From a virus, in the IMG/VR virus record IMGVR_UViG_3300007734_000617, positions 1 through 35,062 of that record: a DNA stretch of 35,062 nt; one strand, given 5' to 3'. This document shows positions 15,648-26,681 of this stretch, piece by piece (within the stretch, counting starts at the first letter, position 1; every line of letters starts with the position of its first letter). The notes under the pieces are model-generated. The model was not told the DNA's origin. It searched no databases and saw only the letters and a program-made list of their open reading frames with translations. The position numbers were made by a program, and so were the translations under genes.

Positions 15648-16853
15648 TTATGCCGCTTTCTTCAATGAAATGAAAGGCTTACCATTTGCTTCTAGCGTTG
15701 CTGTCTGTCCTGTGAATTCTTGCCACCTTTGGACGATTACATCGCAGTACTTGGGGTCTAGTTCCATGCTGCGGTTGATGCGGCCTGTTTTCTCGCAGGC
15801 TATTAGGGTAGAGCCGGAGCCACCGAATAGGTCGAGGACAATGCAATTAGCAACGCTGCTGTTTTCAATAGCCCTTTGACACAATTCAACGGGCTTCATT
15901 GTTGGGTGAGTCTTGGCGTCTTTTGTCCGATCACAGTTCCAAAGCGTTGTTTGCTTCCTGTCTTTTACTCTAACTCGACCGCTACCTTCCTTCCATCCAT
16001 AAAGACAAGGTTCATTTTGCGAATGATAATCCCCCTGCGACATGGTTAAGGTTGGTTTTACCCATTGAATAGTAGATGGACGGGCTTGATGAAAGCCAGC
16101 AGATCGAAAAGCACTAATAAACTCTAAAGCTGTTATGTCGGCGTGCCACACATAAACATTGCTTCCGGGGTGAAGAACAGAATAAGCGCAAACAAAAGCG
16201 TCATGCAAAAACTCTTGTAACTTTGCGTCTTTCAAATGATCGTTTGGAACACCCTCGTAATCCACGCCATAAGGCGGGTCTGTGTGAAGCATATTTGCTT
16301 GTTCCCCATCCATCAGCCTCTCAACCGCATCAATGCTTGTCGAGTCCCCGCACATCACCCGATGCTTGCCTAGCAGCCAAACGTCCCCCAAGACGGTCAC
16401 AGGGGCTTCAGGAACGTCCGGTACAGCATCCTCGTCTGTCAGCCCCTCCGTCCCTGTCGGAGCCAGCAACGCCTCAATCTCGTCGGTGCTGAAGCCCGTC
16501 AGGTCTAGATCGAAACCCATGTCCTTCAGATCGGTAAGCTCCACCGCCAGCATTTCATCGTCCCAACCCGCATTTAAAGCTAGCTTGTTATCTGCAATAA
16601 CGTAGGCTTTCTTTTGCGCTTCTGTCAGGTGAGTCAGTCTGATGCTAGGAACGTCAGTAATCGCTAACTTCCGCGCCGCCATTACCCGTCCATGCCCTGC
16701 AATGATGCTTCCGGTCTCGTCAATCAAAACGGGATTGGTGAAGCCAAATTCTTTAATGCTTGCGGCTATTTGCGCAATTTGATTTTCAGAGTGAGTGCGG
16801 CTATTCCTGGCATACGGAATCAGCTTGTCAATCTTAACTTGTTCAATGTTCAT
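15648..16853 (-). CDS. ParB/Srx nuclease-like domain fused to DNA N6-adenine/N4-cytosine methyltransferase
   Basis: A 401-residue fusion. Residues 1-100 form a ParB-like domain with LIPYARNSRTHSENQIAQIA and IIAGHGRVMAARKL (GHGR at 53-56). After an acidic linker (about 130-150) comes the methyltransferase: catalytic TDPPYG (191-196), then LDLFGGSGSTLIACE (339-353) as the SAM-binding loop. Catalytic-before-SAM order indicates a beta-class amino-methyltransferase. Such fusions are common next to phage terminase genes. It probably methylates phage DNA to avoid restriction; the recognition sequence is unknown. Start overlaps the 55-residue gene as ATGA. Confidence 0.88.
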   Translation of the reverse strand: MNIEQVKIDKLIPYARNSRTHSENQIAQIAASIKEFGFTNPVLIDETGSIIAGHGRVMAARKLAITDVPSIRLTHLTEAQKKAYVIADNKLALNAGWDDEMLAVELTDLKDMGFDLDLTGFSTDEIEALLAPTGTEGLTDEDAVPDVPEAPVTVLGDVWLLGKHRVMCGDSTSIDAVERLMDGEQANMLHTDPPYGVDYEGVPNDHLKDAKLQEFLHDAFVCAYSVLHPGSNVYVWHADITALEFISAFRSAGFHQARPSTIQWVKPTLTMSQGDYHSQNEPCLYGWKEGSGRVRVKDRKQTTLWNCDRTKDAKTHPTMKPVELCQRAIENSSVANCIVLDLFGGSGSTLIACEKTGRINRSMELDPKYCDVIVQRWQEFTGQTATLEANGKPFISLKKAA

Positions 16854-18770: not shown

Positions 18771-18941
18771 TCAATTTGCATCTTGACCGCGCACAAACGC
18801 TGGTTTCCCATCTTCATCAACCACCACATTACCGGCAGCACCGCACGAAAAACAATGAAACGTCCTCGTTAAATTATTCACCACCATGCTCGGCGTTTTT
18901 TCTTTGTGAAACGGACAAAGCATTTTTATCTTTTCAAACAT
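18771..18941 (-). CDS. Stand-alone CHC2 zinc-finger protein (primase zinc domain-like)
   Basis: A 56-residue protein with the best ribosome site in the region, AGGAGG seven bases before the ATG at 18941. The sequence [16 protein letters not shown] followed by [15 protein letters not shown] is the CHC2 zinc finger that normally forms the N-terminus of DnaG-type primases, with ligands Cys9, His12, Cys30 and Cys33. No primase catalytic (TOPRIM) domain follows. It could work in trans with a host primase or act as a single-stranded DNA binder. Confidence 0.8.
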
Positions 18942-18968
18942 ATTGACCTCCTTTTAAGAAAACGTGTT

Positions 18969-19319
18969 TCATGTTGTTACTCCTTTTTGTGCCGGTATTT
19001 TTATACCCGCGTGATGACTCGCTGCATTCAACCATTCCAGCCACTCCGAAAACCGCTTTTTACCGTACCTGCTCGTCCTTCTGCCTAACATCACTACCCC
19101 GCCCTCAAGCCCTGGCGCAAGTCTGGGTGCTGTTTCGCCCTCAAAGGTCGCAGTCAGTACATTTTTCCAATCTTCGTCGGTTAGCCAGCACATAACCCCG
19201 TTAACAGGCCATTGCTTTTGTTCAGCCCAAGCTCGCAAAATAGGCCATTGCAAAGCGTTTTGCCCTGCGTTTCTCCGTTCCTCGCAAACTGGGCATAAAG
19301 TTACAAAGGCGATTGTCAT
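18969..19319 (-). CDS. ninB: NinB-like recombination protein
   Basis: A 116-residue protein. NALQWPILRAWAEQKQWP, then LTDEDWKNVLTATFEGE, then LAPGLEGGVVMLGRRTS, and the helix RFSEWLEWLNAASHHAGI match NinB (lambda Orf), a recombination mediator that binds single-stranded DNA and helps load recombinase. The N-terminus has an unusual CPVCEERRN. I chose the ATG at 19319 because it overlaps the upstream TGA as ATGA; an ATG at 19334 is possible. Confidence 0.8.
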   Translation of the reverse strand: MTIAFVTLCPVCEERRNAGQNALQWPILRAWAEQKQWPVNGVMCWLTDEDWKNVLTATFEGETAPRLAPGLEGGVVMLGRRTSRYGKKRFSEWLEWLNAASHHAGIKIPAQKGVTT

Positions 19320-20686
19320 TTCAATAATCTCCATGCTGTTTCTGCCACTCTTGGAACTTGTCCGTTTCCAATGGCTTTAAGTCTGTCCATTCTAGCGGCC
19401 ACCCCATTAGCTACACGAGGAACGGCATCTTCCCAGCTACCATTTTTCCAAGCCGTTTTGCCGTAGTGTGCCAAAAGTCGTGACAATGCTTGCATAGTGT
19501 CTGAATATTCTCGGGTTTGTTGTAAGTCTTGTTTTGGTCTATGTGGTGCGCTTGTAATGCTTTCACATAACCGCACGCCTCGCATTTCTTCTTCAAGTGC
19601 TTTCGCGCACGCCATGAATAACCGTGCTTCGTCAAATCGATGCGCGTGTTCGCACAATTTAGCGAGCAAAATCGCCGCCTCTGAAATGCCGACAAATCTT
19701 CCAATCTCCCGTTGAATCTCTTGCGCTGCATGACCGTACCGCAACACTCGCATAACTTCGTTTTTTCTGCCTTGCGCTCCATTATTCATCCCCATAAACC
19801 AAAAACACATTTTAACATGGCTTATGGGTTGTATGGAACTCCATTCATCAGGCCAGCCCATCATTTTTTCAACCCACGTTGGGTTCAGTTGGCCAGAGTT
19901 TTGATCCACCGATTGACTCAGCATTATTTGTTTCCCTATTGCAATCCGGCGTTGAATTGAAGGATTGCTCATATTCCCCCGATCCCGATTGTCGGATGCT
20001 GTAGGTGTTGGAAACCTCCGCAGCGCCACCGTTGCTGCTAATGTTGGCGTGTTTCTGAGGAATTTCGATGGAGATGCTGCTTCCTTTGCATTGTGTGCTG
20101 TTGGCGTTGGCCAATTTTCCATGCGTTTCTTGAGTGCCTTCCGACTGTTGCTCCCTCCGTCTAATCCCCCTGTCGTTGGCGTGTGGAAAAAAGTTTCGTC
20201 GTTCGGCTCTGATCCAAATTCGCTCTCTAAGATGGGGCGCACCAACGTCTGCCGCTGATACAACTCCCCACTTTGCATCAAACCCCAGCGCGGCAAGGTC
20301 ACAGAGGACGGTTTCAAGTCCTCGAATAGTGAGCATTGCGCTGTTTTCAATGAATGCGTACTGGGGTCGTACCTCCCCAATAATCCTTGCCATGTGTTTC
20401 CACATTCCTGATTTGCTTCCGGTAATGCCTGCGCCTCTACCTGCTGAGCTGATGTCCTGGCAAGGAAAACCTCCCGATACGACTTGCACAATTCCTCGCC
20501 ACGGCTTTCCGTCAAAAGTTTGAACGTCATCCCAAATCGGAAAAGGCGGGAGAATGCCGTCATTTTGTCTTGCGACAAGTACGCTTGCGGGATAGGGTTC
20601 CCACTCAACTGCACAGACGGTTCGCCAACCGAGCAGTTTTCCCCCGAGTATGCCTCCTCCAGCGCCCGCGAAAAGAGCCAGCTCAT
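19316..20686 (-). CDS. Overlapping-frame partner of the cytosine methyltransferase, carrying its C-terminal motif X
   Basis: A 456-codon frame starting four bases after the methyltransferase ATG (ATGAATGAG). Over 820 bp it is read in a second frame of the same DNA. It looks genuine: SYREVFLARTSAQ, THSLKTAQCSLFEDL, LPRWGLMQSGELY, NWPTPTAHNAKEAASPSKFL and LNPTWVEKMMGWPDEW form a conserved pattern seen in phage methyltransferase loci. Residues 301-425 are the shadow of the HNH gene. The last residues, RLKAIGNGQVPRVAETAW, are methyltransferase motif X, normally in the other frame. It may form a split enzyme with the 273-residue protein. Whether the full 456-residue product is made is unknown. Confidence 0.65.
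   Translation of the reverse strand: MSWLFSRALEEAYSGENCSVGEPSVQLSGNPIPQAYLSQDKMTAFSRLFRFGMTFKLLTESRGEELCKSYREVFLARTSAQQVEAQALPEANQECGNTWQGLLGRYDPSTHSLKTAQCSLFEDLKPSSVTLPRWGLMQSGELYQRQTLVRPILESEFGSEPNDETFFHTPTTGGLDGGSNSRKALKKRMENWPTPTAHNAKEAASPSKFLRNTPTLAATVALRRFPTPTASDNRDRGNMSNPSIQRRIAIGKQIMLSQSVDQNSGQLNPTWVEKMMGWPDEWSSIQPISHVKMCFWFMGMNNGAQGRKNEVMRVLRYGHAAQEIQREIGRFVGISEAAILLAKLCEHAHRFDEARLFMACAKALEEEMRGVRLCESITSAPHRPKQDLQQTREYSDTMQALSRLLAHYGKTAWKNGSWEDAVPRVANGVAARMDRLKAIGNGQVPRVAETAWRLLK
19411..19782 (-). CDS. HNH endonuclease nested in the methyltransferase locus
   Basis: A 123-residue protein in a third frame. The N-terminal zinc finger is LCECCGTVMQRKRF with RRFCSLNC. The catalytic part is KKCEACGYVKALQAHHIDQN followed by NIQTLCKHCHDFWH, the HNH signature. 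It lies in a roughly 454-nt insertion just where the methyltransferase frame ends. Directly after its TAG, the same frame reads LMGWPLEWTDLKPLETDK, a second copy of the motif found before the gene. A selfish homing endonuclease is the likeliest role. Confidence 0.8.
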   Translation of the reverse strand: MERKAEKTKLCECCGTVMQRKRFNGRLEDLSAFQRRRFCSLNCANTRIDLTKHGYSWRARKHLKKKCEACGYVKALQAHHIDQNKTYNKPENIQTLCKHCHDFWHTTAKRLGKMVAGKMPFLV

Positions 20687-20690
20687 TCAT
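19869..20690 (-). CDS. dcm: C5-cytosine DNA methyltransferase, truncated before motif X
   Basis: A 273-residue protein. Motif I is LFAGAGGGILGG (6-17), motif IV is GGFPCQDISSAG with catalytic Cys77, motif VI is ENS (115-117), and motif VIII is HLRERIWI (153-160). The frame stops at KLWPTEPNVG, exactly where relatives continue with GRVADGVA and motif X. That motif X lies 454 nt further on in another frame, behind the HNH gene. The protein alone lacks part of the SAM site, so it may need the overlapping-frame product, as in two-subunit C5 enzymes, or be inactive. Start overlaps the upstream stop as ATGA. Confidence 0.85.
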   Translation of the reverse strand: MNELALFAGAGGGILGGKLLGWRTVCAVEWEPYPASVLVARQNDGILPPFPIWDDVQTFDGKPWRGIVQVVSGGFPCQDISSAGRGAGITGSKSGMWKHMARIIGEVRPQYAFIENSAMLTIRGLETVLCDLAALGFDAKWGVVSAADVGAPHLRERIWIRAERRNFFPHANDRGIRRREQQSEGTQETHGKLANANSTQCKGSSISIEIPQKHANISSNGGAAEVSNTYSIRQSGSGEYEQSFNSTPDCNRETNNAESIGGSKLWPTEPNVG

Positions 20691-20911
20691 ACCCCCTCAA
20701 ACATTTCTTGTTGACCCTGCGGAATTGAATACTTCGCAACCCGCTTACCAGACGGTACGGTAATCATTTCAACCCTGACCGGATGTCCCTGTTTAATCAA
20801 TTCCCCGCACCTTTGACTTAGCGCATACACCCCATAACGGCTCAAAGCATCTGCAACTGTCAGACTTTCGCCACGCCTCATTGCCTCCAAAAGCTGCTCG
20901 CATTGGTTCAT
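20687..20911 (-). CDS. Small helix-turn-helix protein
   Basis: A 74-residue protein. CEQLLEAMRRGESLTVADAL, then SRYGVYALSQRCGELIKQGH and PSGKRVAKYSIP form a winged helix-turn-helix of a type common in phage (HTH domain with a K-R-V-A-x-Y strand). ATGA overlaps join it to both neighbours. It may regulate transcription or act with the replication or methylation module. Confidence 0.75.
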   Translation of the reverse strand: MNQCEQLLEAMRRGESLTVADALSRYGVYALSQRCGELIKQGHPVRVEMITVPSGKRVAKYSIPQGQQEMFEGV

Positions 20912-25106: not shown

Positions 25107-25284
25107 AGACGAAACAGACGCAATGGTGGAGGCGCACCGTGAGGCATCATGGCGGCATGGGTTCCTATGCGGGTTCGCGTGGGCTGCGCTGGCGGTGATC
25201 CTTGCTGCGGGTATCTGTGCAGTATGGGTGACAGCGCATCAACCTGCGAAGGTAGACATCCTCAAACTGGAGAAGAAGAAATGA
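25099..25284 (+). CDS. Small single-span membrane protein
   Basis: A 61-residue protein starting MNKDETDAMVEAHREASW. One membrane span, FAWAALAVILAAGICAVWV, sits in the middle, followed by a short basic end. The ATG at 25099 overlaps the previous gene by 8 nt. It is not placed with the lysis genes and may act on the host envelope early in infection. Confidence 0.6.
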   Translation: MNKDETDAMVEAHREASWRHGFLCGFAWAALAVILAAGICAVWVTAHQPAKVDILKLEKKK

Positions 25285-25829
25285 TGCTGCTAGGCGAAAC
25301 ACCGTACACACCTTGTTACGTTCGCAACGAGTTTTTGTTTAACGAGCAAAAAGGTTTTGGTGCATTTACGCCAGCAGTAGTCTTTGCATTTCGCGCTGAA
25401 CCTGCTCGTGTCCCCATGTTCCAGGTCATGCTTGAGTCAGGGGCGCAATGGGCTAGAGTACCCATACACATGATTTGCAGCAAACCTTGCGAGTCTTTGC
25501 CTATTGAACAAGTTTGCTGGTGGGATAGCTACGGCTATGAATTCTCCGTAGTTGCTCTGCCGTTCCTCAAAAACCATGCCGTTACAGCTCTAGGCCGGGA
25601 TAAGGTTATCCGCAAAGGAAACTATCTGTTTACCGTGGATTGGATGAAAACAGGCTACAGCGAGATATCTGACCAGCACAAAAACCACCATATTATTGCG
25701 CTGGAATCAGGACAATGGATTGCTTACCCGAACAACCGCTTAATTTGGCACGACGAGTCTTGGATAACACCCGCGCCCAATAAAGAATGGCAAACGCCTA
25801 CGCATAATTATTTTGTTGAAGGCCGTTAG
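25281..25829 (+). CDS. Conserved phage protein of unknown function
   Basis: A 182-residue protein starting MMLLGETPYTPCYVRNEFLF. The ATG at 25281 overlaps the upstream stop as ATGA. Highly conserved-looking segments include GAQWARVPIHMICSKPCE, VCWWDSYGYEFSVV, VIRKGNYLFTVDWM and HKNHHIIALESGQWIAYPNN. I recognise it as a recurrent early phage protein without assigned function. Its stop shares the bases TTAG with the oppositely directed endolysin stop. Confidence 0.75.
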   Translation: MMLLGETPYTPCYVRNEFLFNEQKGFGAFTPAVVFAFRAEPARVPMFQVMLESGAQWARVPIHMICSKPCESLPIEQVCWWDSYGYEFSVVALPFLKNHAVTALGRDKVIRKGNYLFTVDWMKTGYSEISDQHKNHHIIALESGQWIAYPNNRLIWHDESWITPAPNKEWQTPTHNYFVEGR

Positions 25830-26251
25830 GCGTAAGGTCTTGTCCCAGTTTTGTCAATAATTAACGCAGTCTTGCGGGGGGTAACACCCTCAGACGGTAT
25901 TGAAAGATGCGTCCAGCGATTATGCTCGCGTATCACTTGGTCGTAATCTAGATCACTTGCAATGATTGCTTTAACCACTTCATCCGGTGTCATGCCAGGA
26001 ACCCGTATGTCAGCGGCGCATCCAGTCCGGTGCTGGCTAGAGTCCTTACTACCCACGGCATCATTGACCGCTTTTGACCTAAAAGCTGAGTTTATAAGGA
26101 TATTACGGTCATCTAGTACCGACCTTACAACCTCCAAAAACTCAGCTAACCGAACAAGATTAGCCAACTCCTTATCCGTAGGCGTGTTGTCAAACTCACG
26201 ATGGTCTGTATGGGTAAGTTCCTCTAGGGAGAAATGCTCACTTAACTGCAT
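25826..26251 (-). CDS. Endolysin, M15-type D-Ala-D-Ala carboxypeptidase/L-Ala-D-Glu peptidase
   Basis: A 141-residue protein. [18 protein letters not shown] at the start, [15 protein letters not shown], then the zinc motif [10 protein letters not shown] (His74 and Asp81) and WTHLSI with the third ligand His115; Glu109 is the likely catalytic base. This is the M15_3 peptidase fold of many phage endolysins. No signal peptide, so it needs the holin two genes upstream. It overlaps the HNH gene by 14 nt and ends the late operon. Confidence 0.88.
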
Positions 26252-26681
26252 TTTTCTTCTCCATCATTTTCTTTCTTGCAGGATGGTTATCACCAGACAG
26301 TCGTTTCCTGTCATGGTTATATCGGCCTTTCTGCATCATGTCATTAGAGTTGTCTTTGGGCGTACCGAGGAAAAGATGGTTAGGATTAAAACATTTTCTA
26401 ACATCGCAGGTATGGCAAACAAACATTCCTTTAGGTACTTGCCCACGAAACAATTGGTAAGAGTATTTGTGCGCCGTGAATACACCGCTTTTAACTGAGC
26501 CAAATTGACCGTATCCAGTTTGTTTGAATATAGCGCCATCCCATATCCAACAATCATTTGGTTTTGCATCTTTATCTAAATGAGCAAGAAAACGGCAATC
26601 ATTGCTACACCACTTCCCCATAGAACCAGTTGGGGTAAATGATTTTTTGCATGACTGGCATAGCCGTTCTTTGTAGATCAT
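26238..26681 (-). CDS. HNH homing endonuclease in the lysis cassette
   Basis: A 147-residue protein with an N-terminal zinc finger ([22 protein letters not shown]) and an HNH_3-type nuclease: [55 protein letters not shown]. It separates holin and endolysin and overlaps both. Likely a free-standing selfish nuclease. Confidence 0.85.

Follow-up and report, generated by a model that had tools for sequence, protein, structure and literature searches.

Can a single stretch of DNA, read in two frames of the same strand, encode two proteins that are both kept by selection, and might these proteins be parts of one enzyme? The question is raised by a cytosine methyltransferase gene of a tailed phage, whose 35,062-nucleotide genome record (IMG/VR IMGVR_UViG_3300007734_000617; here called the window) also encodes a terminase, a portal, a major head protein and an amidase. 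Few prokaryotic examples of long same-strand dual coding with selection on both frames have been documented, to our knowledge. The initial annotation of the locus had claimed that about 820 bp of the gene (19869-20686) carries methyltransferase motifs I, IV, VI and VIII in one frame and conserved peptides in a second, that both frames are under selection, and that the products may be two subunits of one enzyme, or an enzyme and an inhibitor or partner. Both open reading frames are indeed found there, four nucleotides apart, and the four motifs could all be located in the first frame, whose product we call alpha (Table 1). Every one of the second-frame peptides (TAQCSLFEDL, LPRWGLMQSGE, PTPTAHNAKEA and others) is present in the product of the other frame, beta, and the double reading of the same DNA as NVGRVADGVA and TWVEWLMGWP recurs in relatives. 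The overlap has the extent described, but beta runs 553 bp further, to position 19316, and an HNH insert and a displaced motif X had been missed. From the findings below, we regard it as very probable that alpha and beta are two subunits of one C5-cytosine methyltransferase encoded in overlapping frames, alpha providing SAM binding and catalysis and beta a target-recognition-like region and motif IX, and that entry of an HNH gene has shifted motif X.

Table 1. Features of the dual-coded methyltransferase locus in the window
Feature	Position	Strand	Size or motif	Remarks
Shared translation start	20686-20698	-	GAGGGGG	Shine-Dalgarno-like motif 20698-20692; alpha ATG 20690; beta ATG 20686
Alpha ORF	20690-19869	-	273 aa	C5-cytosine methyltransferase catalytic part; PF00145, E=5.4e-28
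Alpha motif I	20678-20652	-	ALFAGAGGG
Alpha motif IV	20474-20454	-	GGFPCQD
Alpha motif VI	20351-20340	-	ENS
Alpha motif VIII	20240-20211	-	APHLRERIWI
Beta ORF	20686-19316	-	456 aa	Frame 2, +1 relative to alpha; ATGAATGAGC; target-recognition-like region with PTPTA repeats, motif IX, spacer through HNH gene, motif X
Beta motif IX equivalent	19850-19888	-	LNPTWVEKMMGWP	Assigned by profile comparison
Displaced methyltransferase tail with motif X	19352-19423	-	VPRVANGVAARMDRLKAIGNGQVP	Beta frame
Insert	19418-19871	-	454 bp	Absent from nearest relative L001 (90% identical)
HNH endonuclease ORF	19411-19782	-	123 aa	Third frame; beta reads through

In alpha, motifs I, IV (PCQ), VI (ENV/ENS) and VIII follow one another in the order characteristic of C5-methyltransferases (PF00145), and the alpha family profile matches residues 16-174 of M.HhaI. 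Motifs IX and X are both absent from alpha in the window. Beta overlaps all of alpha except its first 4 nt; it matches phrog_1008 over residues 61-285 (1.6e-30), a family labelled 'DNA methyltransferase', and its last 60 residues match C-terminal families of methyltransferases. The beta start codon follows that of alpha by 4 nt in the window and in 138 of 139 relatives, and a Shine-Dalgarno-like motif lies upstream in 119 of the 139. Alpha and beta are probably started from the same Shine-Dalgarno region.

How widely is this arrangement kept? At least 596 IMG/VR stretches were confirmed as relatives, and a further 116 phage records and 68 bacterial genome loci were found, the latter by a profile search, the window protein itself having given no match in bacterial genome contigs. 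The two-frame arrangement appears, from these sequences, to be common to hundreds of viruses. All 176 loci that match both profiles have beta in the +1 frame relative to alpha. Internal stops in frame 2 are absent from all 139 complete non-redundant loci, which share ancestry and are not to be counted as independent events. With the frame-1 proteins held fixed and codons shuffled synonymously according to each gene's own codon usage, 4.9 stops per locus and about 1.7 open loci would be expected by chance; the third frame averages 15.9 stops in the same loci. This set had been filtered for a second frame of 200 aa or more, but 80 loci chosen solely by the methyltransferase frame likewise contain no stop within frame 2; the one 'stop' marked in 72 of these loci is the TGA directly preceding the ATG of frame 2. 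Many loci come from metagenome assemblies, and most of the 18 left out of the set of 139 are truncated or frameshifted; among the 18, a stop interrupts alpha but not beta in four and beta but not alpha in one.

The geometry of the overlap places each third position of alpha codons at the second position of beta codons. At 70-75% amino acid identity, four-fold degenerate sites of the methyltransferase are identical in 0.71 of cases versus 0.44 in flanking genes from those loci; identity-matched pairs give 0.73 versus 0.40 for neighbouring genes, and 25 of 26 disjoint pairs show higher conservation in the methyltransferase (Wilcoxon p ~9e-8). Constraint peaks at 0.95 in the motif IX overlap. Parts of the N-terminal half reach 0.62-0.69, and alpha residues 76-105 and 151-165 differ little from background; over motifs VI-VIII, some of the frame-2 pattern may simply follow from conserved codons of frame 1. 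Changes that do occur at four-fold sites lead to beta replacements that are milder than random. Because frame 2 is open in relatives and synonymous constraint is strong, dual coding is taken to be real, with selection acting on both frames. The two checks proposed along with the initial annotation, on frame-2 stops in homologues and on synonymous constraint, both left its claim standing.

What, then, is beta? A Pfam search of 127 beta proteins returned no consistent family, beta belonging to none in Pfam, and PDB sequence searches with beta or with the isolated motif IX-X segment gave chance-level matches only. A profile comparison of the same 127 proteins with single-chain and split methyltransferases of actinophages (97.8% probability, E=8.7e-13) aligned the PTPxA repeats and the LNPxWVEWLMGWPxGWT segment of beta with the stretch lying ahead of motif X in the single-chain enzymes. 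Alpha aligns with the same actinophage set over motifs I-VIII only. A single-chain relative with the LNPxWVEWLMGWPxGWT segment is modelled as the full M.HhaI fold from first to last residue (Z 21.3), and the aligned segment resembles motif IX of HhaI, LHPRECARVMGYP. The C-terminus of beta is thus homologous to motif IX, which alpha lacks, an assignment that builds on the profile comparison within phage methyltransferases and on the HhaI-like model. AlphaFold2 predicts beta alone poorly (pLDDT 55), with confidence confined to the helix of motif IX. Motif X ends alpha in relatives without the insert, and a complete C5-methyltransferase fold with both IX and X is obtained only from alpha and beta together, IX being in beta and X in the beta frame (window) or in alpha (uninserted relatives). 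Actinophages have one-chain forms (Cornucopia, JKSyngboy) as well as two-gene forms that partially overlap by a +1 shift (Peaches, Catdawg, ArV1). On account of these profile alignments and of the single-chain and split forms, we assign motifs I-VIII and X to alpha and the target-recognition-like region and motif IX to beta. The role of beta in recognition is a tentative assignment, because the middle of beta is variable apart from PTPxA.

In the window, the junction of motifs IX and X has been invaded. The 454-bp insert holds most of an HNH gene (PF01844, 6.9e-05, above the gathering score) and brings a substitute end for beta motif IX, KMMGWPDEWSS replacing WLMGWPLEWTD. Nearly all of 32 relatives of the HNH protein are found at the same place in such methyltransferases, and the gene occupies this site in L269-L293, L298 and L299 and is absent in L001, a presence/absence polymorphism. 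The invaded loci fall into two classes: in class I (n=19; L269-L286 together with the window) it is the beta frame that crosses the HNH gene and reaches motif X, and in class II (L287-L293, L298, L299) it is the alpha frame. This host frame, be it beta or alpha, has no stop in any of the 28 HNH-bearing methyltransferases examined, whereas the other frame is stopped in 27 of them. Amino acid identity of the spacer is no higher in the host frame than in the unused frame (0.605 versus 0.594; 0.281 versus 0.288) and the HNH protein is conserved across inserts (0.81 and 0.47), implying that HNH is the constrained protein and that the host frame is conserved in its openness alone. The insert moves motif X onto beta in the window, and we infer that the HNH gene is mobile and of the homing type; no Rfam match to a group I intron was found in 18900-20900. 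A clearly distinct HNH-like reading frame occupies this site in L003, and beta is again open through it. In Gordonia phage Ailee, the annotation of a related methyltransferase gene (L266:2001-3875) joins two pieces around a LAGLIDADG endonuclease, a mobile element of a different type within this gene family.

How might the two frames make one enzyme? We envision a scenario whereby frame 1 supplies, as alpha, the SAM-binding and catalytic motifs I-VIII, and frame 2 supplies, as beta, a target-recognition-like region and motif IX. In uninserted relatives motif X closes alpha; in the window phage the HNH gene would have entered the motif IX/X junction, so that motif X now follows beta through a frame that is kept open. 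The scenario builds on features that can be read from the sequence itself: the overlap, selection on both frames, the placement of motifs, the homology of beta motif IX and the open host frame. Alpha and beta would then assemble as a heterodimer, with beta as its putative recognition subunit and with predicted methylation activity. The probable role of such an enzyme, the usual one of phage methyltransferases, is to protect phage DNA from host restriction by methylation. From a broader perspective, we are slightly inclined to the view that some 270 codons encode both subunits across many phage lineages, that HNH genes have repeatedly entered yet another frame, leaving the host frame open and moving motif X between subunits with the enzyme unbroken, and that in some lineages slippage at a poly-G tract after motif IV could switch both subunits simultaneously.

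Alternatively, frame 2 might be an open frame without a protein product, arising from conserved alpha codons and base composition. Consistent with this, conserved motifs of many methyltransferases yield similar-looking peptides when read in the +1 frame, such as TLPTSGMTRNG over motif VIII of Cornucopia, and beta finds no Pfam match. Yet the synonymous sites of alpha are constrained beyond those of neighbouring genes, most strongly at motif IX, the motif IX of beta is homologous to one read in the methyltransferase frame elsewhere, and the beta frame stays open through all 19 class I inserts. Given the four-fold constraint and the HNH-invaded loci, we rejected this reading and consider it barely credible.

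If beta does encode a protein, it could be reached mainly by programmed frameshifting from alpha, yielding an alpha-beta fusion, rather than from its own start. A +1 shift after motif VIII would indeed produce one chain with I-VIII, the recognition-like region and IX (and X in the window), like the single-chain actinophage enzymes. This is improbable, however, given the conserved beta ATG and the constraint in the N-terminal part of beta, and because a fusion would be without motif X in relatives lacking the insert. Another conceivable role for beta is that of an inhibitor or regulator of alpha, or of an unrelated phage protein that happens to overlap it: beta is not catalytic, and regulators are often encoded by overlapping genes. 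Beta nevertheless has the motif IX that alpha lacks, along with motif X in invaded relatives, and the split actinophage genes divide the motifs in the same way, so we consider a regulatory or unrelated beta very improbable. Of the two functions initially suggested, the inhibitor is thus unsupported and two subunits of one enzyme is the reading that the motif distribution favours.

Two overlapping subunits of one methyltransferase would be a variant of known two-polypeptide C5-methyltransferases, differing in the near-full overlap and the HNH gene. The beta gene of M.EcoHK31I is probably nested in its alpha gene in another frame, and we know of no full overlap of the two M.AquI genes. Both enzymes are natural two-polypeptide C5-methyltransferases (PMC3404938). 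In M.EcoHK31I (YGGCCR), the large polypeptide has motifs I-VIII and X as well as the recognition domain, and the small one has IX (PMC3404938). Compared by motif layout, the uninserted relatives share this I-VIII plus X versus IX division, whereas the window has X on beta; moreover, the recognition-like repeats here lie in beta, and the two frames cover almost the same DNA from starts separated by 4 nt, the window having an HNH gene in addition. In M.AquI (CYCGRG), alpha contains I-VIII and beta the end of the variable region with IX-X (PMC3404938), a division also found in the window, Catdawg and ArV1, although M.AquI has no HNH insert. The actinophage methyltransferases (Mycobacterium phages Cornucopia, Peaches and Catdawg; Arthrobacter phage ArV1) have homologous catalytic and motif IX halves and their two-gene forms also overlap by a +1 shift, but they are single chains or overlap only partly. 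Finally, insertion of mobE splits nrdA of phage Aeh1 into pieces that still form the enzyme (PMC2988022). There, too, an HNH endonuclease lies inside a phage enzyme gene, but in the present loci the endonuclease gene does not interrupt the host frame, which stays open across it.

If this explanation is correct, a subunit is missing from the annotation of many phage and prophage 'DNA cytosine methyltransferases', and clones that express only alpha are predicted to be inactive. The HNH-invaded versions would provide a test of how a mobile gene enters coding sequence without breaking the frame.

Several observations concern individual loci. Prophage copies with the dual frame occur in E. coli PT62 (L267) and E. 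coli PCP07014 (L268), where the RefSeq annotation is limited to alpha; stops close together break both frames in PCP07014. In a Neisseriaceae locus (L171:2936-3146) the dual-coded gene is reduced to its start and its motif IX/X end, apparently by internal deletion. A poly-G tract of 9-15 G, absent from the window, recurs just after motif IV, always at one site, in 14 loci. Its length is out of frame in six of them (L001:3227, L005:3227, L020, L024, L168, L271), alpha and beta being shifted into each other's frame; it is in frame in L003, L056/L191, L218/L223, L238, L242 and L259. The tract could be phase-variable or an assembly artefact. Elsewhere in the window, 15648-16853 (-) encodes another DNA methyltransferase, which is fused to a ParB-like domain (phrog_498); a ferredoxin-family protein (phrog_3704) is encoded at 25149-25829 (+) and a further HNH endonuclease at 26238-26681 (-).
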